A DNA stretch of 44,831 nucleotides from Candidatus Obscuribacterales bacterium (lineage in GTDB: Bacteria; Cyanobacteriota; Vampirovibrionia; Obscuribacterales; Obscuribacteraceae). The position numbers and the translations under genes are program-made. The stretch is taken from contig JAGVKG010000042.1 in assembly GCA_020050685.1 (NCBI GenBank), forward strand, positions 1-44,831. The letters are read 5' to 3'. Positions 1,167-13,370 of the stretch are shown piece after piece (the stretch's first letter is position 1; every line of letters starts with the position of its first letter). The notes below the pieces were generated by a model. It searched no databases, was not told the origin of the DNA, and saw only the letters and a program-made list of their open reading frames with translations.

Positions 1167-2375
1167 ATGAAAAGTTTCTTTATTAGCACCACTATTTGCG
1201 TTTGCGCTCTGGTTATCGTTCTCGATCTCTGGCTCAATTTGGGCCATCCGTTGGCGCATGCTCCAACTGCTTCTCTTGATCGCGGCGAAATATTTACTGC
1301 CACGCAAGAGTACAAGAAAGTAGCCAAGGCACCAGATGTGGTGCTATTAGGATCATCGCTTGTTACGGCTCCAGTAATGCAAGCCGATGCAATTCTGGCC
1401 AATCAACCAATTTCCCGTTTCTCACAGCGCAATTGTGAATTTCTCGAAGCGGCGTTAGCTAAGAAGCTCGACAGTCATGACCCAAGTACAAGTCCAAAAA
1501 TCTTTTGTTTGGCTGTTGGCGGCGAAATGGTATCAGATGCTTATTTGATCGTGAAACATGTTTTGGATAACAAAACACCATCGGCAATTATCTACGGCAT
1601 TGCTCCGCGTGATTTTCAAGACAACATCATGCCAGGCGTTCAATCAAGTGAGACATTCCATGTGCTTGCTCGTGTAAATGATTTGCCGGATCTTTTCCAA
1701 ACAGCCAATCTTACTTGGGAACAGAAGACAAACATTTTTCTTGAGAGAGTCTGGGGACTCTGGCGATATCATGCTGACATCAAAACCTATTTGACCTTGC
1801 GTGCCAAGAAATTACTGGAGGCTTGTTTGCCTTGGGTGATGTTTGATAAATATGGCGAAACGCTTGAGCTGAAGCCACGCAAGCGCGGGCAATTTCCGGA
1901 AGAGGCAATTGGTGTTTTGCAAGCTTTCCCAAATGTTGCCGTGGAACACACGTCGGCAGAGGCGGCTCGCTTTGAGTATATAAGACGATACAACCCGCCA
2001 AATCAAAAAATGATTGATGCGGAATTTGAGTATTTGCAAAAACTTTTGGCTTTGTGCAGCCAACGCGGCACGCCAGTATTGTTGATTAATATGCCGCTCA
2101 GTCAATTCAATAAGAGTTTGATGCCCAAAGAGTTTTACACTGCTTATCTAAATCGCCTTGGAAGCTTGAGTAAGGCTTACGATGCAGAGTTCGTTGACTT
2201 AAATAAGAACCCCTGGGACGCTGAGGCTAACTTTGCCGACACCGTGCATTTAAGTCCAGCAGTCAGCCAAAAGTTTTTAGATCAAGTCGCTGCCGTTGCT
2301 GCTCAATCATCTGTTTCGATTGCCATACGCAAGTCTAATCAATCGATCGCCGTCATCAAGCAATCAATACACTGA
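1167..2375 (+). CDS. DUF1574-type SGNH-like protein (stand-alone paralogue)
   Basis: A 402-residue protein with an N-terminal signal anchor (about residues 5-24) and an extracytoplasmic SGNH-hydrolase-like domain. The nucleophile block is VVLLGSSLV (GSS at 62-64), a GIAPRDF block lies at 144-150, an NMPLSQFNKSLMP block near 308-320, and the Asp-x-x-His block is DTVH at 358-361. The same four blocks occur in the three paralogues at 7808-11861, which follow an MBOAT acyltransferase. By analogy with AlgJ/AlgX, PatB and DltD it probably transfers or removes acyl groups on a surface polymer. This copy has no MBOAT next to it and lies on the other strand. Its stop codon directly abuts a P450 remnant. 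Confidence 0.75.
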   Translation: MKSFFISTTICVCALVIVLDLWLNLGHPLAHAPTASLDRGEIFTATQEYKKVAKAPDVVLLGSSLVTAPVMQADAILANQPISRFSQRNCEFLEAALAKKLDSHDPSTSPKIFCLAVGGEMVSDAYLIVKHVLDNKTPSAIIYGIAPRDFQDNIMPGVQSSETFHVLARVNDLPDLFQTANLTWEQKTNIFLERVWGLWRYHADIKTYLTLRAKKLLEACLPWVMFDKYGETLELKPRKRGQFPEEAIGVLQAFPNVAVEHTSAEAARFEYIRRYNPPNQKMIDAEFEYLQKLLALCSQRGTPVLLINMPLSQFNKSLMPKEFYTAYLNRLGSLSKAYDAEFVDLNKNPWDAEANFADTVHLSPAVSQKFLDQVAAVAAQSSVSIAIRKSNQSIAVIKQSIH

Positions 2376-4208: not shown

Positions 4209-5225
4209 ATGGCAGACAAGAATAAGATTGTAGAAGGTAATGTGGCGGGTGATTTTTTTGTTGATACCACTTGTATCAACTGTGACAATTGCCGCGAGAT
4301 GGTGCCTGAAGTTTTTGGACGATTTGGATCTTATGCGGGTGTGAAAAGGCAGCCTCAATCTGCCGAGGAGATTCATCTCTCATTGCAGGCGCTGGTTTGC
4401 TGCCCAACCGGTTCGATTGGCACCCATGAAAAGCACGACATCAAATCTGTGATTGATGAGTTCCCCATTCTCATTGATGAGAATATCTATTATTTTGGTT
4501 TCAATTCACCCAAAGGTGCTGGTGGCAAAAGCTACTTTGTCAAACATCCAAACGGTAATTGGATGATTGACAGTCCAAAGTTTCAACCGCGGCTGCTTGA
4601 GTGGATACAAGCTAATGGTGGTTTGAAATATATTTTCTTGACGCATAGAGATGATGTTGCCGATGCTGGATCATATGCCACCAAGCTAAATGCTAACCGG
4701 ATTATTCATATTGAAGACATCGAATCTCAGCCGCATGCGGAAATGATTCTTGAAGGATTAAACCCACTTACCTTGGACAATGACTTCATCATCATTCCCA
4801 CGCCAGGACACACTGAAGGACATTGCATGTTGCTTTACAAGAATAAGTATTTGTTTTCTGGCGATGTATTAACGGCGAACTTTCGATACCATGAAGGTTT
4901 GGAAGTCTGGCCGCCATTGTATTGTTGGTATTCGTGGGGCGAGCAGATTAAGTCTCTTGAGCGTTTGCAAAAATATGACTTCGAACGGATACTGCCGGCA
5001 CATGGCCGCAGATATTCTTGCGACCCTTCGAAGATGAAAGAGCAATTGGCAAATGTCATAGAGCGCTCGAAGTCAGAACCAGATCCCAATCCTTGTACAC
5101 CGGAACGTATAGCGTTTTTGGAGCGCCTAGCTGTATTTTTTGACGAGCAGGGTCAACCTGTCTACGCTGATACAATGCGCATGCGCGCCGAAGCCGCAAA
5201 CCTGCGTGCAGCTGAAATGCGCTAG
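4209..5225 (+). CDS. Ferredoxin / metallo-beta-lactamase-fold fusion protein
   Basis: A 338-residue protein with two domains. Residues 1-70 form a small ferredoxin with C22-x2-C25-x2-C28 and a later CCPTGSI (C64/C65), enough for a 4Fe-4S or 3Fe-4S cluster. Residues 85-270 form an MBL fold, with THRDD (145-149), PTPGHTEGH (197-205), SGD (217-219) and PAHG (263-266). The first metal motif departs from HxHxDH: Arg and Asp occupy the usual spacer and second His positions, so the metal site is altered. I believe similar fusions occur in cyanobacteria and plastids. The reaction is unknown; an iron-sulfur-dependent hydrolase or oxidoreductase is possible. ATG start follows GGGAGAAG. The gene converges with the next one with one base between them. 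Confidence 0.8.
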   Translation: MADKNKIVEGNVAGDFFVDTTCINCDNCREMVPEVFGRFGSYAGVKRQPQSAEEIHLSLQALVCCPTGSIGTHEKHDIKSVIDEFPILIDENIYYFGFNSPKGAGGKSYFVKHPNGNWMIDSPKFQPRLLEWIQANGGLKYIFLTHRDDVADAGSYATKLNANRIIHIEDIESQPHAEMILEGLNPLTLDNDFIIIPTPGHTEGHCMLLYKNKYLFSGDVLTANFRYHEGLEVWPPLYCWYSWGEQIKSLERLQKYDFERILPAHGRRYSCDPSKMKEQLANVIERSKSEPDPNPCTPERIAFLERLAVFFDEQGQPVYADTMRMRAEAANLRAAEMR

Positions 5226-6157: not shown

Positions 6158-6730
6158 TTGGCAACTACATCCATACCCTTATTAACAAAGAGATTAGTGC
6201 TGCGCGAATGGCAAACAGACGATTGGGTTTTTGCCCATCAATGGTCCTCTGATCCGAAAGCCGTTGCTTATATGCAATTTGGGCCGAATACAGAAGAAGA
6301 AACAAAAGAGTTCATCTTCAAGGTAATCACTTACCAAACAGAAGAACCCAGATTGCATTTTGAACTGGCAGTGACACTGAAGGAAACAGGCGAAGTTATT
6401 GGTGGTTGTGGTATTCGCATTGTTGATGCCGAAAACCAAACTGCCTCTATGGGTTATATGTACACCCAAAGGTACTGGGGGCATGGCTATGGCACAGAGG
6501 CTGCTGCTGCCTTGGTTGACTTTGGCTTTTCCAAATTGAAAGTTCATCGCATCTGGGCTACTTGCGATCCGGAAAATATTGGCTCAGCTCGCATCTTAGA
6601 AAAGGCGGGCATGCGAAAAGAGGCGCACTTCCGACAACATATGCTGGTGCGCGGCCAATGGCGCGATTCTCTCCTCTACGCAATCCTAGAGGATGAATAC
6701 GCGGCTCTTAAGCAAACTGACAAGCGCTAG
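6158..6730 (+). CDS. GNAT-family N-acetyltransferase (RimJ/RimL type)
   Basis: A 190-residue protein starting at TTG with AAGGAA just upstream. The GNAT fold is clear: an N-terminal TKRLVLREWQTDD strand, FELAVTLKETGEVIGGCGIRI (strands 2-4), the acetyl-CoA loop YWGHGYGTEAAAALVDFGF, and IWATCDPENIGSARILEKAGM (motif B). It is closest in pattern to RimJ/RimL-like enzymes that acetylate protein N-termini or small molecules; the substrate is unknown. The stop overlaps the stop of the convergent Nudix gene in a shared CTAG (6727-6730), leaving no room for a terminator between them. Confidence 0.85.
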   Translation: MATTSIPLLTKRLVLREWQTDDWVFAHQWSSDPKAVAYMQFGPNTEEETKEFIFKVITYQTEEPRLHFELAVTLKETGEVIGGCGIRIVDAENQTASMGYMYTQRYWGHGYGTEAAAALVDFGFSKLKVHRIWATCDPENIGSARILEKAGMRKEAHFRQHMLVRGQWRDSLLYAILEDEYAALKQTDKR

Positions 6731-7752
6731 AACAAGACGAACTGGCCCGTGCGTTTGAATTCAGTTAGTTTTTCGATCGTGCGTTTGTGGTGCGGTAGCA
6801 TTTCGGGAAGCGACTTGGGATCGAAAAAATCTATCTCTAAAGATTCGTCGTTGCTTTGCATGAGGGTGCCTTGCCATTTGGTGGCATGCCAAATCAATGA
6901 GAAGCAGTGGATTAGATCACCATTGGGATATGAGACTATTTCAAAATTTGGATCAGAGGCAAAACCAAATGCTTGATGATTAAGCATTTGTAAACCGGTT
7001 TCTTCAAAGACTTCTCGCCAGATACATTCTTCTATACACTCACCATCTTCTGTGCCGCCGGTAGGCAGTCCCCAGATGCCGAAGTCAGGACGTCTGTGCA
7101 AAAGAATTTTGCCGTCCTCGCGTTCCAAGACGGCTCTGCCACCGGGGATCATCAGCAAATGATTGCCGACTATTTTGCGCAATTGTCCGGCATAAGAATC
7201 GGCAAACGGCTTGGCATTTCCGGGAAGCGTGACGGACAATTCTGAGAGCTTCTGGGATTTATCTTTGCACGAGGCTTGGAATTTGCCTGTACGCTTGAAT
7301 GTTTGCAATTGCTCAATGGCAATTCGATCGCATTCAATCATATCGGGTAGCTGATTGGGCGCGAAAAAATCAATTGCCAGAGTCTCATCGTTGCTATCTA
7401 TGAGCTCGCCTTCCCACTTGGTTGCATGTAGGACTAAGCCAAATCCGTGCACGCGATCACCGTTTGGATAAGTGACTATTTCATACTCTGGTTCAGAGGC
7501 GAAGGCGCAAGCTTGATATTGTTTGATGGTCAAACCGGTTTCTTCAAAGATTTCCCTGACGATTGCCTGCTCGCACGATTCGCGCTCCTCTGGTGCGCCT
7601 CCAGGCAGCGCCCAAGCCTTAAAATCCGAACGTTTGTGCAAAAGAATTTTGCCGTCTTCGCGTTCGAGAATGCCTCTGCCACCAGGCACATGCAAAAGCC
7701 TGTGACCAACAAGTGTTCTTAATTTACCGAGATATGATTGAGCGAAGTCCAT
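6727..7752 (-). CDS. Tandem double-Nudix hydrolase
   Basis: A 341-residue protein from the ATG at 7752. A longer frame up to 7833 exists, but it would cross a GC hairpin and overlap the upstream gene. It has two complete Nudix domains, each with a canonical box (Gx5Ex7REUxEExGU): GGAPEERESCEQAIV then REIFEETGL in the first, GGTEDGECIEECIW then REVFEETGL in the second. Both copies share flanking text such as GKILLHRRPDF and YPNGD. The DNA repeats with a period of exactly 540 bases (compare 7091-7140 and 7631-7680). Nudix enzymes hydrolyse nucleoside diphosphate-linked compounds; the substrate is not predictable here. It lies at the end of the MBOAT/SGNH operon and may be cotranscribed. Confidence 0.88.
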   Translation of the reverse strand: MDFAQSYLGKLRTLVGHRLLHVPGGRGILEREDGKILLHKRSDFKAWALPGGAPEERESCEQAIVREIFEETGLTIKQYQACAFASEPEYEIVTYPNGDRVHGFGLVLHATKWEGELIDSNDETLAIDFFAPNQLPDMIECDRIAIEQLQTFKRTGKFQASCKDKSQKLSELSVTLPGNAKPFADSYAGQLRKIVGNHLLMIPGGRAVLEREDGKILLHRRPDFGIWGLPTGGTEDGECIEECIWREVFEETGLQMLNHQAFGFASDPNFEIVSYPNGDLIHCFSLIWHATKWQGTLMQSNDESLEIDFFDPKSLPEMLPHHKRTIEKLTEFKRTGQFVLF

Positions 7753-7771
7753 AAAGTAATGATTCGTGTAG

Positions 7772-7790
7772 GGGCGGGGTCTCCCCGCCC
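7772..7790. repeat. GC-rich palindrome, REP/MITE-like
   Basis: GGGCGGGG-TCT-CCCCGCCC is a perfect 8-bp stem with a 3-base loop, lying between the SGNH stop (7808) and the Nudix ATG (7752). Its GC content is far above that of the neighbourhood. No T-run follows on the minus strand, so it is more like a dispersed extragenic palindrome or an mRNA-stabilising hairpin than a terminator. Only one copy is in the window. Confidence 0.55.
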
Positions 7791-7807
7791 TCATTGGATC
7801 GCAGCAC

Positions 7808-9067
7808 CTATTCCGAACGGTGCAGCCGTGCAATTGGTCCAGCGCTGTTTAAACTAGTAACCAGGTTTGGTTGCTTGCCAATGTATCTGGTAATTTCGGC
7901 AAATAGTTTGTCTCCACCACGGGCGGAAAGATGGACGGTATCCAAATAATCATCCAGGGTAAAAACATCGCTATCGGAAAGATCCAACCAGTCGGCTGAA
8001 TTCTTCACGCAGATGGACGATATGTTGTTATGGAAGTCCTGCCAGAAACTGTCAGGCAGAAGCTTGCGATTCGGGCTAACTGATGGCATGCCGACAACCA
8101 ATACCTTGACACCGTTTTGTCGCAGCCGTGTGAGCGCGTCGTTGAAAAATGAAAGTTCTTGCGGGTATATGGGTGGATTCGGGTTTGTATAACGGTGGAT
8201 GTACTCTTGCGTATTGTCGACAAACAAATAAGGAATATTGGCTGGCACAAGCCATTGTCCGGGTGAGATATTGCCACCAGAGGCAGAAATGCCTTTGAGA
8301 AACTCTTGTTTGTTAGTTGTTGCTGGTGCCTCGCCGCTTGCCATACAACTTGCGACTTTTCCGTGCAATTGACTCATCGGCAAGTATCTATTCAATAACC
8401 AGCCAAAGCGAGAGAGATCGTCGGTGAAAGCCCAGGCAGCTAGTTTGTCCGGCTCGACAAAGCGCGAGAAGAAACGAAACGGCTCAGTTGCCGAAGCGGA
8501 AGGCAAAGTATTGTCAATGAAATCACGTGGCGAGATACCAATCACTACCATCTTTGGTTTGAGTCTGCCGGTAAGCAAAGTGCGTGTGATCAAATTTTGA
8601 TCTGAAGCCATTGCACCGCCCATAGACCAATTGAATATGGAAATAGGATGACCAAGACGATGAGTCAAATCATTTTCCAAAGTGGTGGCACGGCGATAAG
8701 ACACGCAGTCCAATGCCTTTTGTAAAGTTTGCGCATCAGCGGTAAAAACAGCCGTAGCCATTTGTGAACTGCCAAGCAAGACGATATCCGGTGCTTGCAC
8801 TTGAGCAAGGTAAGATTTTGATATCCACCAAGGCCAAGTACCTTTGATGTTTGATGCGGAATCTGGTTTGGACAGTTCTTCGTCAATAGTTGTGGTTCGC
8901 AAATTGACAGAGAAAAGCAAAGTTAGATTGGCAATAAAGAATATGCTCAGCGCCATGAGAAACTTGCTGGTTGATTTGGTCGACTTGAGCTTTCTGGCAG
9001 GTGCTTGTCCTGCCTTCAGTCTTGGACTGCGCTCTATTGTTTGTGTGTCTTGACCGAGATTTTGCAT
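7808..9067 (-). CDS. DUF1574-type SGNH-like protein, third paralogue of the MBOAT operon
   Basis: A 419-residue protein with a basic cytoplasmic N-terminus (about 35 residues), one TM anchor (about 36-55) and an extracytoplasmic SGNH-like domain. The nucleophile block is DIVLLGSSQM (GSS 99-101), followed by VVIGISPRDFIDN, VLVVGMPSVSPNRKLLP, and the His block DTVHLS with D376 and H379. The putative Ser-Asp-His set is therefore intact. ATG start; it begins 6 bases after the previous gene ends. It probably finishes or modifies acyl transfer to a surface glycan supplied by the upstream MBOAT. The acceptor and acyl group are unknown. It differs from its siblings in the sequence around GSS (SQM versus SLM). 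Confidence 0.82.
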   Translation of the reverse strand: MQNLGQDTQTIERSPRLKAGQAPARKLKSTKSTSKFLMALSIFFIANLTLLFSVNLRTTTIDEELSKPDSASNIKGTWPWWISKSYLAQVQAPDIVLLGSSQMATAVFTADAQTLQKALDCVSYRRATTLENDLTHRLGHPISIFNWSMGGAMASDQNLITRTLLTGRLKPKMVVIGISPRDFIDNTLPSASATEPFRFFSRFVEPDKLAAWAFTDDLSRFGWLLNRYLPMSQLHGKVASCMASGEAPATTNKQEFLKGISASGGNISPGQWLVPANIPYLFVDNTQEYIHRYTNPNPPIYPQELSFFNDALTRLRQNGVKVLVVGMPSVSPNRKLLPDSFWQDFHNNISSICVKNSADWLDLSDSDVFTLDDYLDTVHLSARGGDKLFAEITRYIGKQPNLVTSLNSAGPIARLHRSE

Positions 9068-9073
9068 GCTTCT

Positions 9074-10504
9074 CTAAAGTGGCTTATTCGGATTCCATTT
9101 TGGTGCATCTTCTGCATCCTGCTTCTGCTCATGGCTATGATTGCGCTCATTGCTTGCCAGGGCTTCGTGCTTAGCCAGCGCATCACCTGCCAATGATAAT
9201 GCCGTGGCTGACCGTCCATCGCTTGCCAGAGTCTTTGATAAATCCTCAAAAAACTTCTTGCCACCATAAGCATTTAAGTGAACTGAATCATGGAAGTCAG
9301 AAATTGAATAATGTTGGAAGTTGGAGAGATCGTAAAACTCAACATTGTTATTTGCAGCAAAGGCGCGCATGTCTTGCAAGTACTTCATGTAAACGCCTGG
9401 AGGCAACATGGAAACGTTATAGAGTGTAATTGGCATGTTGACCATAATCAGCTCCATGCGCTCTTTCTGGCAATAACGAGCTAATTGTCTGAGGAAGTAA
9501 ACTTGCGTGCGATAAGTGTGCAGGTTCGGATGCTTATAGCGTTGGGCATATTCCATGCGATTATCTGAATAACGTGCTCTGGCGGTCTTTTCATCAATTG
9601 GACCGGCCATCACGGCTTCCGGATGAATTTCAGTTGGTAAGTAGTTGGGAATTAAACGAACCCGATCCCACCAGGTGAAAGGCGGATTGTTGTATGGTTT
9701 AGGAACCGCCTGGGCAAGGAAGTTGGTGGACTCTTGCTTGAATGCCATTTGGCAATCAACCGCTTGTCCATAAAGATAGACTGTTCTTTGCAGCCACCAG
9801 TCAAGTTTTGCATATGGTGATTCGAATATCTTGCCGGCAATGTCGTCAATGGTCACCAGGCGCTTGAGATATCTGAAAGGTTCAGTATCGGCTGGTGTGG
9901 AAAGAGTGCTGTCGATGAAGTCACGCGGTGCGATGCCATAAACCACAACATCCGGACGATTGGCACAATTGACAGTTGCCTTGAGAGTAAGATAGGCATC
10001 AGAAGGCATTTGACCTGGAGCCGATAAATTAGCCGTGGAGAAGGTGCCACCAAATCTGGTGCGCAACAAATGCTCAAGATAGGAAGCTTTGTGGTAGTTG
10101 GCCAAATCAAGCGGCTTATTCAAATAATTTGCGTCGGTACCGGCAACCGCGCTGACCATTAATGACGATCCTAATAGCGCAACATTGTGCTCCGCAGTTT
10201 GTTTGCGTAAATCATTTATAGTCCACCAGGACCAGCCGCGATAGGGAAAGGCAAAAGAGTCGAAGCGGAATGGTGTTGCATAAGACAAATAGTGGTTGAG
10301 CAATAAGAAGACAACCAGAGTAGCAATAAACAAGCTTCTCGGTCTGCGAATGTTTACAGCAAAGAAACTGTGATGATCTCGATGAGCCTCCTCGGCTGCT
10401 CGCTTTGCTTGTTCGGCGGAACTCAACACGTGAGCATTCTCTACGCCAGGACTTTCTTGTCCTGTCAGTTTATTGGGATCTGGTGAAATAGTTGGAGTTT
10501 GCAT
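9074..10504 (-). CDS. DUF1574-type SGNH-like protein, second paralogue of the MBOAT operon
   Basis: A 476-residue protein with a hydrophilic N-terminal extension of about 55 residues (Ala/Glu/His-rich), a TM helix (about 56-74) and an SGNH-like ectodomain. Visible blocks are NVALLGSSLM (GSS 112-114), VVYGIAPRDFIDS, IMVNMPITLYNVSMLPP, and DSVHLNAYGG with D406 and H409. A charged C-terminal tail of about 45 residues ends in NKPL, as does the preceding paralogue. ATG start; the gene begins 13 bases after that paralogue ends, so they should be cotranscribed. The role is inferred from AlgJ/AlgX, PatB and DltD partners of MBOAT enzymes. Confidence 0.82.
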   Translation of the reverse strand: MQTPTISPDPNKLTGQESPGVENAHVLSSAEQAKRAAEEAHRDHHSFFAVNIRRPRSLFIATLVVFLLLNHYLSYATPFRFDSFAFPYRGWSWWTINDLRKQTAEHNVALLGSSLMVSAVAGTDANYLNKPLDLANYHKASYLEHLLRTRFGGTFSTANLSAPGQMPSDAYLTLKATVNCANRPDVVVYGIAPRDFIDSTLSTPADTEPFRYLKRLVTIDDIAGKIFESPYAKLDWWLQRTVYLYGQAVDCQMAFKQESTNFLAQAVPKPYNNPPFTWWDRVRLIPNYLPTEIHPEAVMAGPIDEKTARARYSDNRMEYAQRYKHPNLHTYRTQVYFLRQLARYCQKERMELIMVNMPITLYNVSMLPPGVYMKYLQDMRAFAANNNVEFYDLSNFQHYSISDFHDSVHLNAYGGKKFFEDLSKTLASDGRSATALSLAGDALAKHEALASNERNHSHEQKQDAEDAPKWNPNKPL

Positions 10505-10517
10505 TTTCTTCCACCAC

Positions 10518-11861
10518 CTATAACGGCTTGTTGCCAGAAAGGGAAAGCCGTGTTTCTCTTGCCTTGCTTCTTGCCGCCTTGATCACCTTTGGGGAACGAG
10601 CCGCCGTTGCATGTCGCAAGCCAGAAGCTAATTGCACACCTTTTGGTTTTATTCCTAATGCCACCAAAGTTGGGCGGTCAGCTGAAAGTGTGTCTGCCAA
10701 GCAATCAAGCATCTTGCGTCCGCCACCAGTGTGCAAATGCACTGTGTCCATGAAATCAGACAGCGCGAATTTCTTGCTGGCATCGAGATCGATAAAGGTT
10801 GCACCTTTTGATAAGGCAAAACTGCGAACACCGGTGCGGTAGACGTCCCAGGCTTGCTTGGTCAAAAGCGAACGATTGATATCGGTAATTGGCATTGCCA
10901 TTACTACTACATGAATTCCACGCGCGCGAGCCACATTCATCAGATCGGTAAAAGAACGCATTTGAGTTATATATGTATCCCACTTAAGGGACTTATAGCG
11001 CTTGCGATATTCAATTAAGTTGTCGGCAAAGGCTTCGCGTTCGCCAAGCTCATGAGGGCGGAAGAAGGCTTCTCCCACGTTCAGTTCGCCTGGTCTATAT
11101 TCCGGCATCAAAGCCCGCCGGTCGAAAATCGAAAATCGTTTTTCTGTTTGCGGCAGAGGAATATATTTTTCTGCCTTGCTGGTCGCCAACTGGTTTGCTT
11201 TGCAAGTTATGTCTTGTTTCAATCCATATAAGTAAACCGACTTGCTCAGCTCATAGTTGAGGCGTTCTTTCCAATCCGGGAAAAAGAGCGAGGCTTGTTC
11301 TTCCACCGAACCTAAACGACTGAGGGAATGGAACGGATCTGTTGCCGAAGGACTAGGCAACAAATTATCCAAGAAGTCACGCGGGCCGACACCATAGACA
11401 ATTATTTTTGGTGCCTTTTCATGTCTAAGCAAAAACTGAGTGATCAAGTCTGCATCCGAGGGCATTTCACCAGGTAAAGCAAAGTTGAAAGTCGAAATGG
11501 CTTTGCCTGATTTCCTGGAAAAAACATCTTCAAAGTAAAGACTCTTATGATGCTGGCTGCCATCGATACGCTTATGCGTGTAATCAGCATCGCAGCCGGC
11601 GAGAGGAACAAGCATCAGCGATGAGCCAAGGAAAACCAAATCAGGAGATTTCTTTTGTTTGAGAAAATCACCGATTGCCCAACTTGTCCAATTCTTCTCC
11701 GGAAACTTAGTTGCTTCCGTCTGGCCAAATCCATTGACCCAGGCCGCATAGTTGACTAGCCAGTAGAGCAAAACCGCAAAAGCAAAAGAGCTAACAAAGC
11801 AGACATCTTTTGCTTGATGGCAACTTGCTTCTTTTAAATTGGCTTTCTCAGAGTTGTCCAC
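10518..11861 (-). CDS. DUF1574-type SGNH-like protein, first paralogue after the MBOAT gene
   Basis: A 447-residue protein starting at GTG. It has a short cytoplasmic N-terminus, a TM anchor (about 22-41), then the SGNH-like ectodomain: LVFLGSSLM (GSS 79-81), IVYGVGPRDFLDN, VVVMAMPITDINRSLL, and DTVHLHTGGG with D372 and H375. The C-terminal tail (about 60 residues) is rich in Lys, Arg and Ala and ends in NKPL. It follows the MBOAT gene by 57 bases and is the most likely direct partner for it. As with DltD and PatB, the ectodomain could pass an acyl group from the membrane enzyme to the glycan. Confidence 0.82.
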   Translation of the reverse strand: MDNSEKANLKEASCHQAKDVCFVSSFAFAVLLYWLVNYAAWVNGFGQTEATKFPEKNWTSWAIGDFLKQKKSPDLVFLGSSLMLVPLAGCDADYTHKRIDGSQHHKSLYFEDVFSRKSGKAISTFNFALPGEMPSDADLITQFLLRHEKAPKIIVYGVGPRDFLDNLLPSPSATDPFHSLSRLGSVEEQASLFFPDWKERLNYELSKSVYLYGLKQDITCKANQLATSKAEKYIPLPQTEKRFSIFDRRALMPEYRPGELNVGEAFFRPHELGEREAFADNLIEYRKRYKSLKWDTYITQMRSFTDLMNVARARGIHVVVMAMPITDINRSLLTKQAWDVYRTGVRSFALSKGATFIDLDASKKFALSDFMDTVHLHTGGGRKMLDCLADTLSADRPTLVALGIKPKGVQLASGLRHATAARSPKVIKAARSKARETRLSLSGNKPL

Positions 11862-11918
11862 TATTTACGGTCCATTGGAAATTGGCAAATTGTCGGAATT
11901 AAGTCGGACAAACGCTCT

Positions 11919-13370
11919 CTAGAATTGGAAGTAAATGAAGCGTGGCGAAGTGTCCGGACTGAAAATAGTCAGAAGACACATTAGTGCCACCATTACAGTT
12001 ACTTGTACAGGCCATGGCGGACTTAAATAGAAACGCTTGTCGTTAAGCCAATCCACAACTGGCTGCGCAATCATTAGCACCGGCAAAATTAGAACTAAAG
12101 CCGGGAAAATAATTGGATCACGAATTTGCAGAATTGCCAATTGCGCAGCGCTGAAGTGTGCCAACTCGATTGGTGCTTGCGCCAATTTTTGAATGATGTT
12201 CCAAGCAATGGTCAGATTCTCAGCCCGGAAGAATACCCAGCCGACACAGACAATGTGGAATGTGATAACCACTGACACAGCGTGATAAATCTTGGACGAT
12301 AATAGTTTTTCTGCTACGCCCACGCGGACAAGCATTTTTGAATATTCTTTGTGCAGAATCAAAAGCACGCCTTGGTACGCACCCCAAGCCAGGTAGTGCA
12401 TAGCAGCACCGTGCCAGAGTCCGCCCAGTGCCATGGTCAAAAATAAATTGCGGTAGGTGAACAATGTGCCACCACGCGATCCACCGAGTGGAATAAACAA
12501 ATAGTCTCTCAACCAGGTTGACAGACTGATATGCCAACGATGCCAGAAATCGGAAACGTTTGCGGCGATGTAAGGCAAGTTGAAGTTGATTGGCACCTTG
12601 TAACCGAAGAGCATGGCTGAGCCACGGGCAATATCCGTGTAACCGGCAAAGTCAAAGAAAATCTGGAAAGCAAATGCGTAAACAATTACCCAGAGATCAA
12701 GGCTCGAGAAATTTTCCGGATGTGTAAAACCAGCTTGCACAACAAGGGCAAGATTGTCTGCAATCAAAACTTTCTTGAAGAGTCCAAGCAAAATTTGTTG
12801 CATGCCCTCATCCACATATTCCCACTTGAATTTGGCAGGAATAGCAAGCTGGGGAATAAAGTCTTGATAGCGCTTGATTGGACCAGCAATTTGCGTCGGG
12901 AAAAACGAAGCGAAAAGCGCAAAGCCGGGCAAGGATTTGACCGGCTCTTTGCCGCGATAAACCTCAACGGCGTAATGAATGAACTCAAAAACGAAAAAGG
13001 AAATGCCCAAAGGCAGAAGAATATGCAAGTGTGGTTCACGCCAATTGATATGAGCTAGCGCCAAACCTTCTTTCAGTGTGTGCATGCCAAACGTGGCGTA
13101 CTTGAAAATTGCCAGCGTAATTAAGTTGCCTGCCACCACAATTCCCAAAATCAACTTCTTGTGTTTTTCGGTTTTTGTGATCAGGGGCACTAAGAAATAA
13201 TTTCCCAGCGTCAAACCGGCAATAAGAAATCCGTAGATTGGCCGCCACGACATATAGAAAACGTAGCTTGCCACCAAAAGTAGCGGCACACGCAAACGAT
13301 GTGGACAAATCCAAAAAAGTAAAAATACGGTCGGAAGAAAGACCAAGTACTGCAGACTGTTAAATTCCAA
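11919..13370 (-). CDS. MBOAT-family membrane O-acyltransferase (AlgI/PatA type)
   Basis: A 483-residue polytopic membrane protein with roughly ten hydrophobic segments. The family hallmarks are present: PLGISFFVFEFIHYAVEVYRG (the Q usually found after SFF is replaced), FFPTQIAGPIKRY, the FDFAGYTDIARG segment, WHRWHISLSTWLRDYLFIPLGG (His277, His280) and the catalytic-type His320 in LGGLWHGAAM. AlgI, PatA and DltB use this fold to move acyl groups across the membrane onto exported polymers. TTG start at 13370 behind AAGGAGATGGAAGG. It is the first gene of a minus-strand operon with three SGNH-like partners and possibly the Nudix gene. Confidence 0.93.
   Translation of the reverse strand: MEFNSLQYLVFLPTVFLLFWICPHRLRVPLLLVASYVFYMSWRPIYGFLIAGLTLGNYFLVPLITKTEKHKKLILGIVVAGNLITLAIFKYATFGMHTLKEGLALAHINWREPHLHILLPLGISFFVFEFIHYAVEVYRGKEPVKSLPGFALFASFFPTQIAGPIKRYQDFIPQLAIPAKFKWEYVDEGMQQILLGLFKKVLIADNLALVVQAGFTHPENFSSLDLWVIVYAFAFQIFFDFAGYTDIARGSAMLFGYKVPINFNLPYIAANVSDFWHRWHISLSTWLRDYLFIPLGGSRGGTLFTYRNLFLTMALGGLWHGAAMHYLAWGAYQGVLLILHKEYSKMLVRVGVAEKLLSSKIYHAVSVVITFHIVCVGWVFFRAENLTIAWNIIQKLAQAPIELAHFSAAQLAILQIRDPIIFPALVLILPVLMIAQPVVDWLNDKRFYLSPPWPVQVTVMVALMCLLTIFSPDTSPRFIYFQF

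Follow-up and report, generated by a model that had tools for sequence, protein, structure and literature searches.

Organization of the MBOAT-SGNH locus

The window, i.e., the whole 44,831-nt stretch of Candidatus Obscuribacterales DNA that we analyzed, carries between positions 7808 and 13370 a gene encoding an MBOAT acyltransferase followed by three genes for SGNH-like paralogues, hereafter referred to as partners A, B, and C. This arrangement had been proposed in a preliminary description of the locus, and it was confirmed by the open reading frames, Pfam searches, and pairwise homology. The genes of the unit and two further genes of the window considered below are as follows.

11919..13370, minus strand: MBOAT acyltransferase, PatA/AlgI/DltB-like; 483 aa, TTG start, C-terminus FIYFQF
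10518..11861, minus strand: SGNH partner A; 447 aa, GTG start; predicted N-terminal membrane helix and SGNH domain; presumed triad Ser81, Asp372, His375
9074..10504, minus strand: SGNH partner B; 476 aa; presumed triad Ser114, Asp406, His409
7808..9067, minus strand: SGNH partner C; 419 aa; presumed triad Ser101, Asp376, His379
1167..2375, plus strand: SGNH paralogue no. 4 (clade O); separate orientation, no MBOAT of its own; DUF1574 score of 28 bits
13670..14401, minus strand: OmpR-type response regulator gene, directly upstream of the MBOAT gene (gap of 300 nt)

In the window, the genes of the unit are separated by 57 nt (MBOAT-A), 13 nt (A-B), and 6 nt (B-C). Pairwise searches from A recovered B with an E value of 2.5e-68 (33% identity) and C with an E value of 1.9e-44 (32% identity). 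The sequence blocks named in the preliminary description (GSS, PRDF, MP, and D-x-x-H) are present in all three partners, and the NKPL terminus that it had noted in two of them was indeed found at the ends of A and B.

The MBOAT ends in an acyl-shuttle motif

Assignment of the first gene product to the MBOAT proteins was supported by a Pfam match with an E value of 3e-33 (116 bits versus a cut-off of 27) and by a match to the solved DltB structure (E value, 2.7e-31), whereas its score with the NCBIfam DltB equivalog model (193 bits) was under the 375-bit cut-off. The sequence FIYFQF occupies the extreme C-terminus of all 42 MBOAT orthologues that were read, and each of the seven MBOATs encoded in the same genome ends in either FIYFQF or FVYFQF. 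This hexapeptide fits the FxYxxF acyl-shuttle motif as defined previously (PMC12148441), here fused to the MBOAT itself. In PatA, the Tyr of FxYxxF is auto-acetylated, and the acetyl-Tyr form of the motif peptide acts as the donor for PatB (PMC12148441).

Partners A, B, and C belong to one SGNH family

Searches of solved-structure sequences with profiles of A and C yielded no convincing match, and fold comparison was therefore needed. AlphaFold models of A and C (pLDDT of 89.4 and 85.6, respectively) both show an SGNH domain preceded by a helix at the N-terminus. The best Foldseek match for the A model was DltD (3.9e-05). VIA-align comparisons of the same model reached Z scores of up to 16.5 with SGNH hydrolases, 14.2 to 14.4 with PatB (14.4 for 8tlb), and 14.2 with DltD 3bma (rmsd of 5.5 over ∼270 residues), while C aligned with DltD 7dxm over 273 residues (Z score of 14.5; rmsd of 5.3). 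DltD is thereby the best full-length structural match for the models of both partners. A and C are thus predicted with high confidence to adopt SGNH folds, and B is probably an SGNH protein as well, as judged by its homology to A. The preliminary description had made its acylation reading depend on an SGNH fold with Ser, Asp, and His in place; this fold was found in the predictions for A and C, and the three residues are conserved, with triad geometry being judged in the two models by fold, topology, and conservation rather than from distances.

The order of the blocks, with the Ser after the first strand, the Block II Gly after the next, and D-x-x-H before the last helix, places Ser ahead of Asp-His as in canonical, unpermuted SGNH proteins. 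In all three partners, PRD stands in place of the Block III Asn. Positions G79, S80, S81, M133, S135, D136, R161, D165, M323, P324, D372, and H375 (A numbering) are invariant in the 14 paralogues of the genome. Similarly, the Ser, Asp, and His residues of A, B, and C are kept in every complete sequence among the compared loci, which amounts to 36 of 36 sequences in the case of B. The proposed relationship to DUF1574 (PF07611; cut-off of 29.1 bits) held for C (35.5 bits) but not for A (19.9 bits) or B (no match), which do not reach the curated threshold. The paralogues tested in the genome scored 28 to 42 bits, several of them above the cut-off. A 2022 review lists neither an activity nor a structure for DUF1574 (PMC9487903).

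Gene spacing suggests co-transcription

Scans for promoters and terminators returned sites no more frequently than in shuffled sequences, and co-transcription was therefore evaluated from gene spacing. Among the 36 three-gene sets, a number that includes one set with a mis-assigned later gene (L084), an overlap of exactly 4 nt between A and B was seen in 28, and the gap between B and C is of 30 nt or less in 34. Furthermore, the SGNH genes downstream of the orthologous MBOAT lie on its strand in the fetched loci. This spacing makes it likely that the four genes are co-transcribed.

Upstream of the unit, most loci share the gene order der-plsY-htrA-response regulator, and the response regulator gene itself is syntenic in 38 of those compared; its OmpR-type product is, from this position, a possible regulator of the unit. 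No DltA or DltC gene was seen beside the unit. Its conserved neighborhood contains no glycan-synthesis gene, no AlgF, and no polymer synthase, and thus does not point independently to any acceptor.

The four-gene unit is conserved across the family

Of 50 genomes from the same family (Obscuribacterales, "Melainabacteria"), 43 encode a distinct counterpart of the MBOAT; they represent 21 of 24 genera. These counterparts share 73 to 81% identity with the window protein (70% for one further copy), whereas other MBOATs mostly remain at or below 61%. The full MBOAT-A-B-C set was recovered in the same order at 35 loci from 17 genera, a recurrence that exceeds what chance would produce. A phylogenetic tree built from 140 proteins resolved separate clades for A, B, and C (SH-aLRT support of 100 in each case), and the order of the three genes along the DNA is constant. 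The tree and the gene order indicate that the unit is ancient in the family and that the split between A, B, and C predates its diversification.

Departures from the complete set are few in kind. Three genera of one lineage (g3, g4, and g20) carry A and C without B, with B-profile scores that stay below 280 bits versus more than 600 for B orthologues elsewhere. One genome (G005) has B and C without A, whereas its sister (G001) keeps all three partners. Another (G020) combines a complete set with the second MBOAT of 70% identity, which is followed by a B-like gene only (C63; L099 and L132). The other short loci stop at contig ends. The named matches of a search with the B-orthologue alignment were Candidatus Obscuribacterales or Melainabacteria assemblies, including Candidatus Obscuribacter phosphatis EBPR_351, and a B-profile search of 292 genomes of the phylum returned, beyond the genome of the window, a single weak match. 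Essentially no counterpart was found in genomes of the same order or class outside the family. A search of close-relative contigs with protein A alone and a search of plasmid records gave no match.

Wherever dS could be estimated, dN/dS values between close relatives were 0.02 to 0.13 for all four genes. Purifying selection on the three partners is strong. MBOAT orthologues share about 76% identity with the protein of the window, versus median values of 49, 50, and 40% for A, B, and C, respectively, a pattern that points to a conserved putative donor MBOAT and more variable end enzymes.

Separate roles of the partners had been deduced in the preliminary description from their different tails, which were taken to suggest separate acceptors, complexes, or locations. 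The comparison did not bear this out, since the tails are the least conserved part of the proteins: within orthologue groups, the C-terminal tails share 18 to 28% identity versus 41 to 53% for the cores, i.e., they change fastest. A role of the tails as specificity determinants therefore finds no support. Likewise, NKPL was discarded as a shared functional tail because it is confined to the host genome. Better evidence for separate roles comes from the antiquity of the three clades together with clade-specific residues beside the active site. The position directly after the Block II Gly is Glu in 39 of 41 A proteins (E132) and Gln in 36 of 36 B proteins (Q165), and it is mostly Ala or Ser in C.

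Some regularities were nonetheless seen at the termini. Proteins of clade A end in Leu in 33 of 40 cases, the tail being otherwise poorly conserved, and their end often reads (I/L)A-x(1-5)-G-x(1-3)-L; those of clade C often end in W plus one residue. A C-terminal Leu occurs in 66 of 194 members of the SGNH family versus 35 of 892 other ORFs.

Other MBOATs and SGNH paralogues in the genome

The host genome (4.2 Mb in 70 contigs) encodes seven MBOATs and 14 members of the SGNH family to which A, B, and C belong. Five of these MBOATs adjoin one, one, one, two, or three family members, and for the remaining two a different GDSL-like protein comes next; MBOAT-A-B-C is the largest of the several MBOAT-SGNH sets. 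Six family members have no adjacent MBOAT, among them the clade O paralogue of the window (1167-2375, plus strand), which might be a further client of the unit. This gene adjoins a TPR-like gene (78-1094), and in about a dozen relatives the clade O paralogue follows C at a distance of at most a few kb, in the opposite orientation.

One putative acyl-Tyr donor for three transferases

The predicted SGNH fold of A and C, the conserved Ser, Asp, and His residues, the shuttle motif, and the gene spacing together support the earlier reading of the locus as an extracytoplasmic MBOAT-SGNH acylation system. We favor, with a probability of roughly 0.6, a four-gene acylation operon in which one acyl-Tyr donor would serve three transferases differing in specificity. 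The MBOAT would take an acyl group on the cytoplasmic side, with acetyl from acetyl-CoA as the default guess, and load it on the Tyr of its own C-terminal FIYFQF, as suggested by analogy with PatA and DltX. The motif would then swing to the outer face, where membrane-anchored A, B, and C might each dock in turn and accept the acyl group on the catalytic Ser (81, 114, and 101, respectively), which would hand it to an extracytoplasmic acceptor. Docking of all three proteins on the window MBOAT and the use of different acceptors are what we infer from the data above. Since the A/B/C split occurred before the family diversified and each protein has been kept, the three most likely differ in their acceptor, or in the position on it, and are not redundant copies. 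As a counter-consideration, the six other MBOATs of the genome could serve A, B, or C. More tentatively, and at somewhat less than even odds, we propose a hub-and-spoke arrangement ancestral to the Obscuribacterales family, in which one acyl-Tyr MBOAT would feed three dedicated SGNH transferases (possibly more, counting the unlinked paralogues without an MBOAT) for different surface polymers or positions.

The main rival of this scheme is a relay or hetero-complex acting on one polymer in the AlgI-AlgJ-AlgX style, with one SGNH protein passing the acyl group to a terminal transferase. Precedent exists in alginate and cellulose acetylation, which employ one MBOAT and two SGNH proteins, AlgJ being the proposed intermediary and AlgX the terminal enzyme (PMC4148444 and PMC10302187), and a complex would fit the constant gene order and the translational overlap. 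However, the separate losses and additions described above have left A+C, B+C, and MBOAT+B sets, so that no member appears obligatory except possibly C, a pattern that disfavors an obligatory relay of three steps. In addition, Pfam searches revealed neither an AlgF-like nor a carbohydrate-binding domain in A, B, or C. We regard this alternative as unlikely overall, although a relay may still operate between some pairs.

Opposing activities, with one SGNH protein transferring the acyl group and another removing it, are an improbable explanation. The order MBOAT, SGNH protein, and SGNH esterase is that of gonococcal-type patA-ape2-ape1a clusters (PMC1199599), but A, B, and C are members of one family with a common N-terminal anchor and common motifs, all of them devoid of the Block III Asn (PRD instead), whereas Ape1 belongs to a different, CE3-like SGNH family. 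Still less probable is the retention of redundant tandem duplicates for dosage on a single acceptor: a pair of genes in the same genome (C7; 51% identity) demonstrates that tandem duplication does occur in the family, yet identity among A, B, and C is as low as about 27 to 30%, and they represent three old clades, each subject to strong purifying selection and marked by clade-specific residues.

Comparison with known acylation systems

The scheme of one donor for three transferases resembles PatA/PatB, the peptidoglycan O-acetyltransferase of Gram-negative bacteria, in having an MBOAT with a C-terminal FxYxxF and a membrane-linked SGNH transferase with the S...DxxH order, but PatA works with one transferase rather than three, the sequence family is different, and the acceptor there is peptidoglycan. 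DltD is, as stated, the best full-length fold match for the partners, and the MBOAT matches solved DltB; in DltB/DltD, which acts in the D-alanylation of teichoic acid, however, the shuttle motif resides on the separate DltX microprotein instead of on the MBOAT, and the unit described here has three SGNH partners. OAP clusters of peptidoglycan O-acetylation (patA-ape2-ape1a) similarly contain an MBOAT gene followed by two SGNH genes, but these belong to different families and have opposing roles. The ape2 gene of such clusters is now called patB, and its product is the transferase.

The AlgI/AlgJ/AlgX/AlgF and WssH/WssI/WssF/WssG systems also associate one MBOAT with several SGNH proteins in an operon. 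They differ in including AlgF and a synthase operon, of which there is none near the unit, whose three partners are instead paralogues of the same family. Furthermore, AlgJ, AlgX, and WssI are circularly permuted (H-S-G, with D-x-H before the Ser; PMC9487903), whereas A, B, and C show the S...D-H order. Polysaccharide O-acetylation systems have been described as comprising one, two, or four proteins, with a maximum of two SGNH proteins per MBOAT (PMC4148444 and PMC10302187), and the literature consulted on several SGNH partners per MBOAT yielded two-partner cases and no three-partner case. What is new here is thus an old and conserved one-MBOAT-to-three-SGNH set, in a comparison of MBOAT neighborhoods within the phylum; such sets may also exist elsewhere. 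The set makes it possible to ask experimentally whether one acyl-Tyr shuttle can supply several transferases and why some systems employ several SGNH proteins. DUF1574-like proteins, represented by C and several paralogues above the profile cut-off and by A and B below it, are also placed in a mechanistic context, and the set points to unstudied surface chemistry in a non-photosynthetic sister lineage of the cyanobacteria.

Other features of the window

The gene at 6727-7833 (minus strand) encodes two tandem NUDIX domains and is outside the conserved neighborhood of the unit. The gene at 4209-5225 (plus strand) joins a ferredoxin (Fer4_13) and a metallo-beta-lactamase-fold domain in one protein. 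Finally, a perfect GC-rich palindrome, GGGCGGGGAGACCCCGCCC, is located just downstream of C (7772-7790); it has 12 copies in the genome versus none for the reversed control, which marks it as an interspersed repeat.
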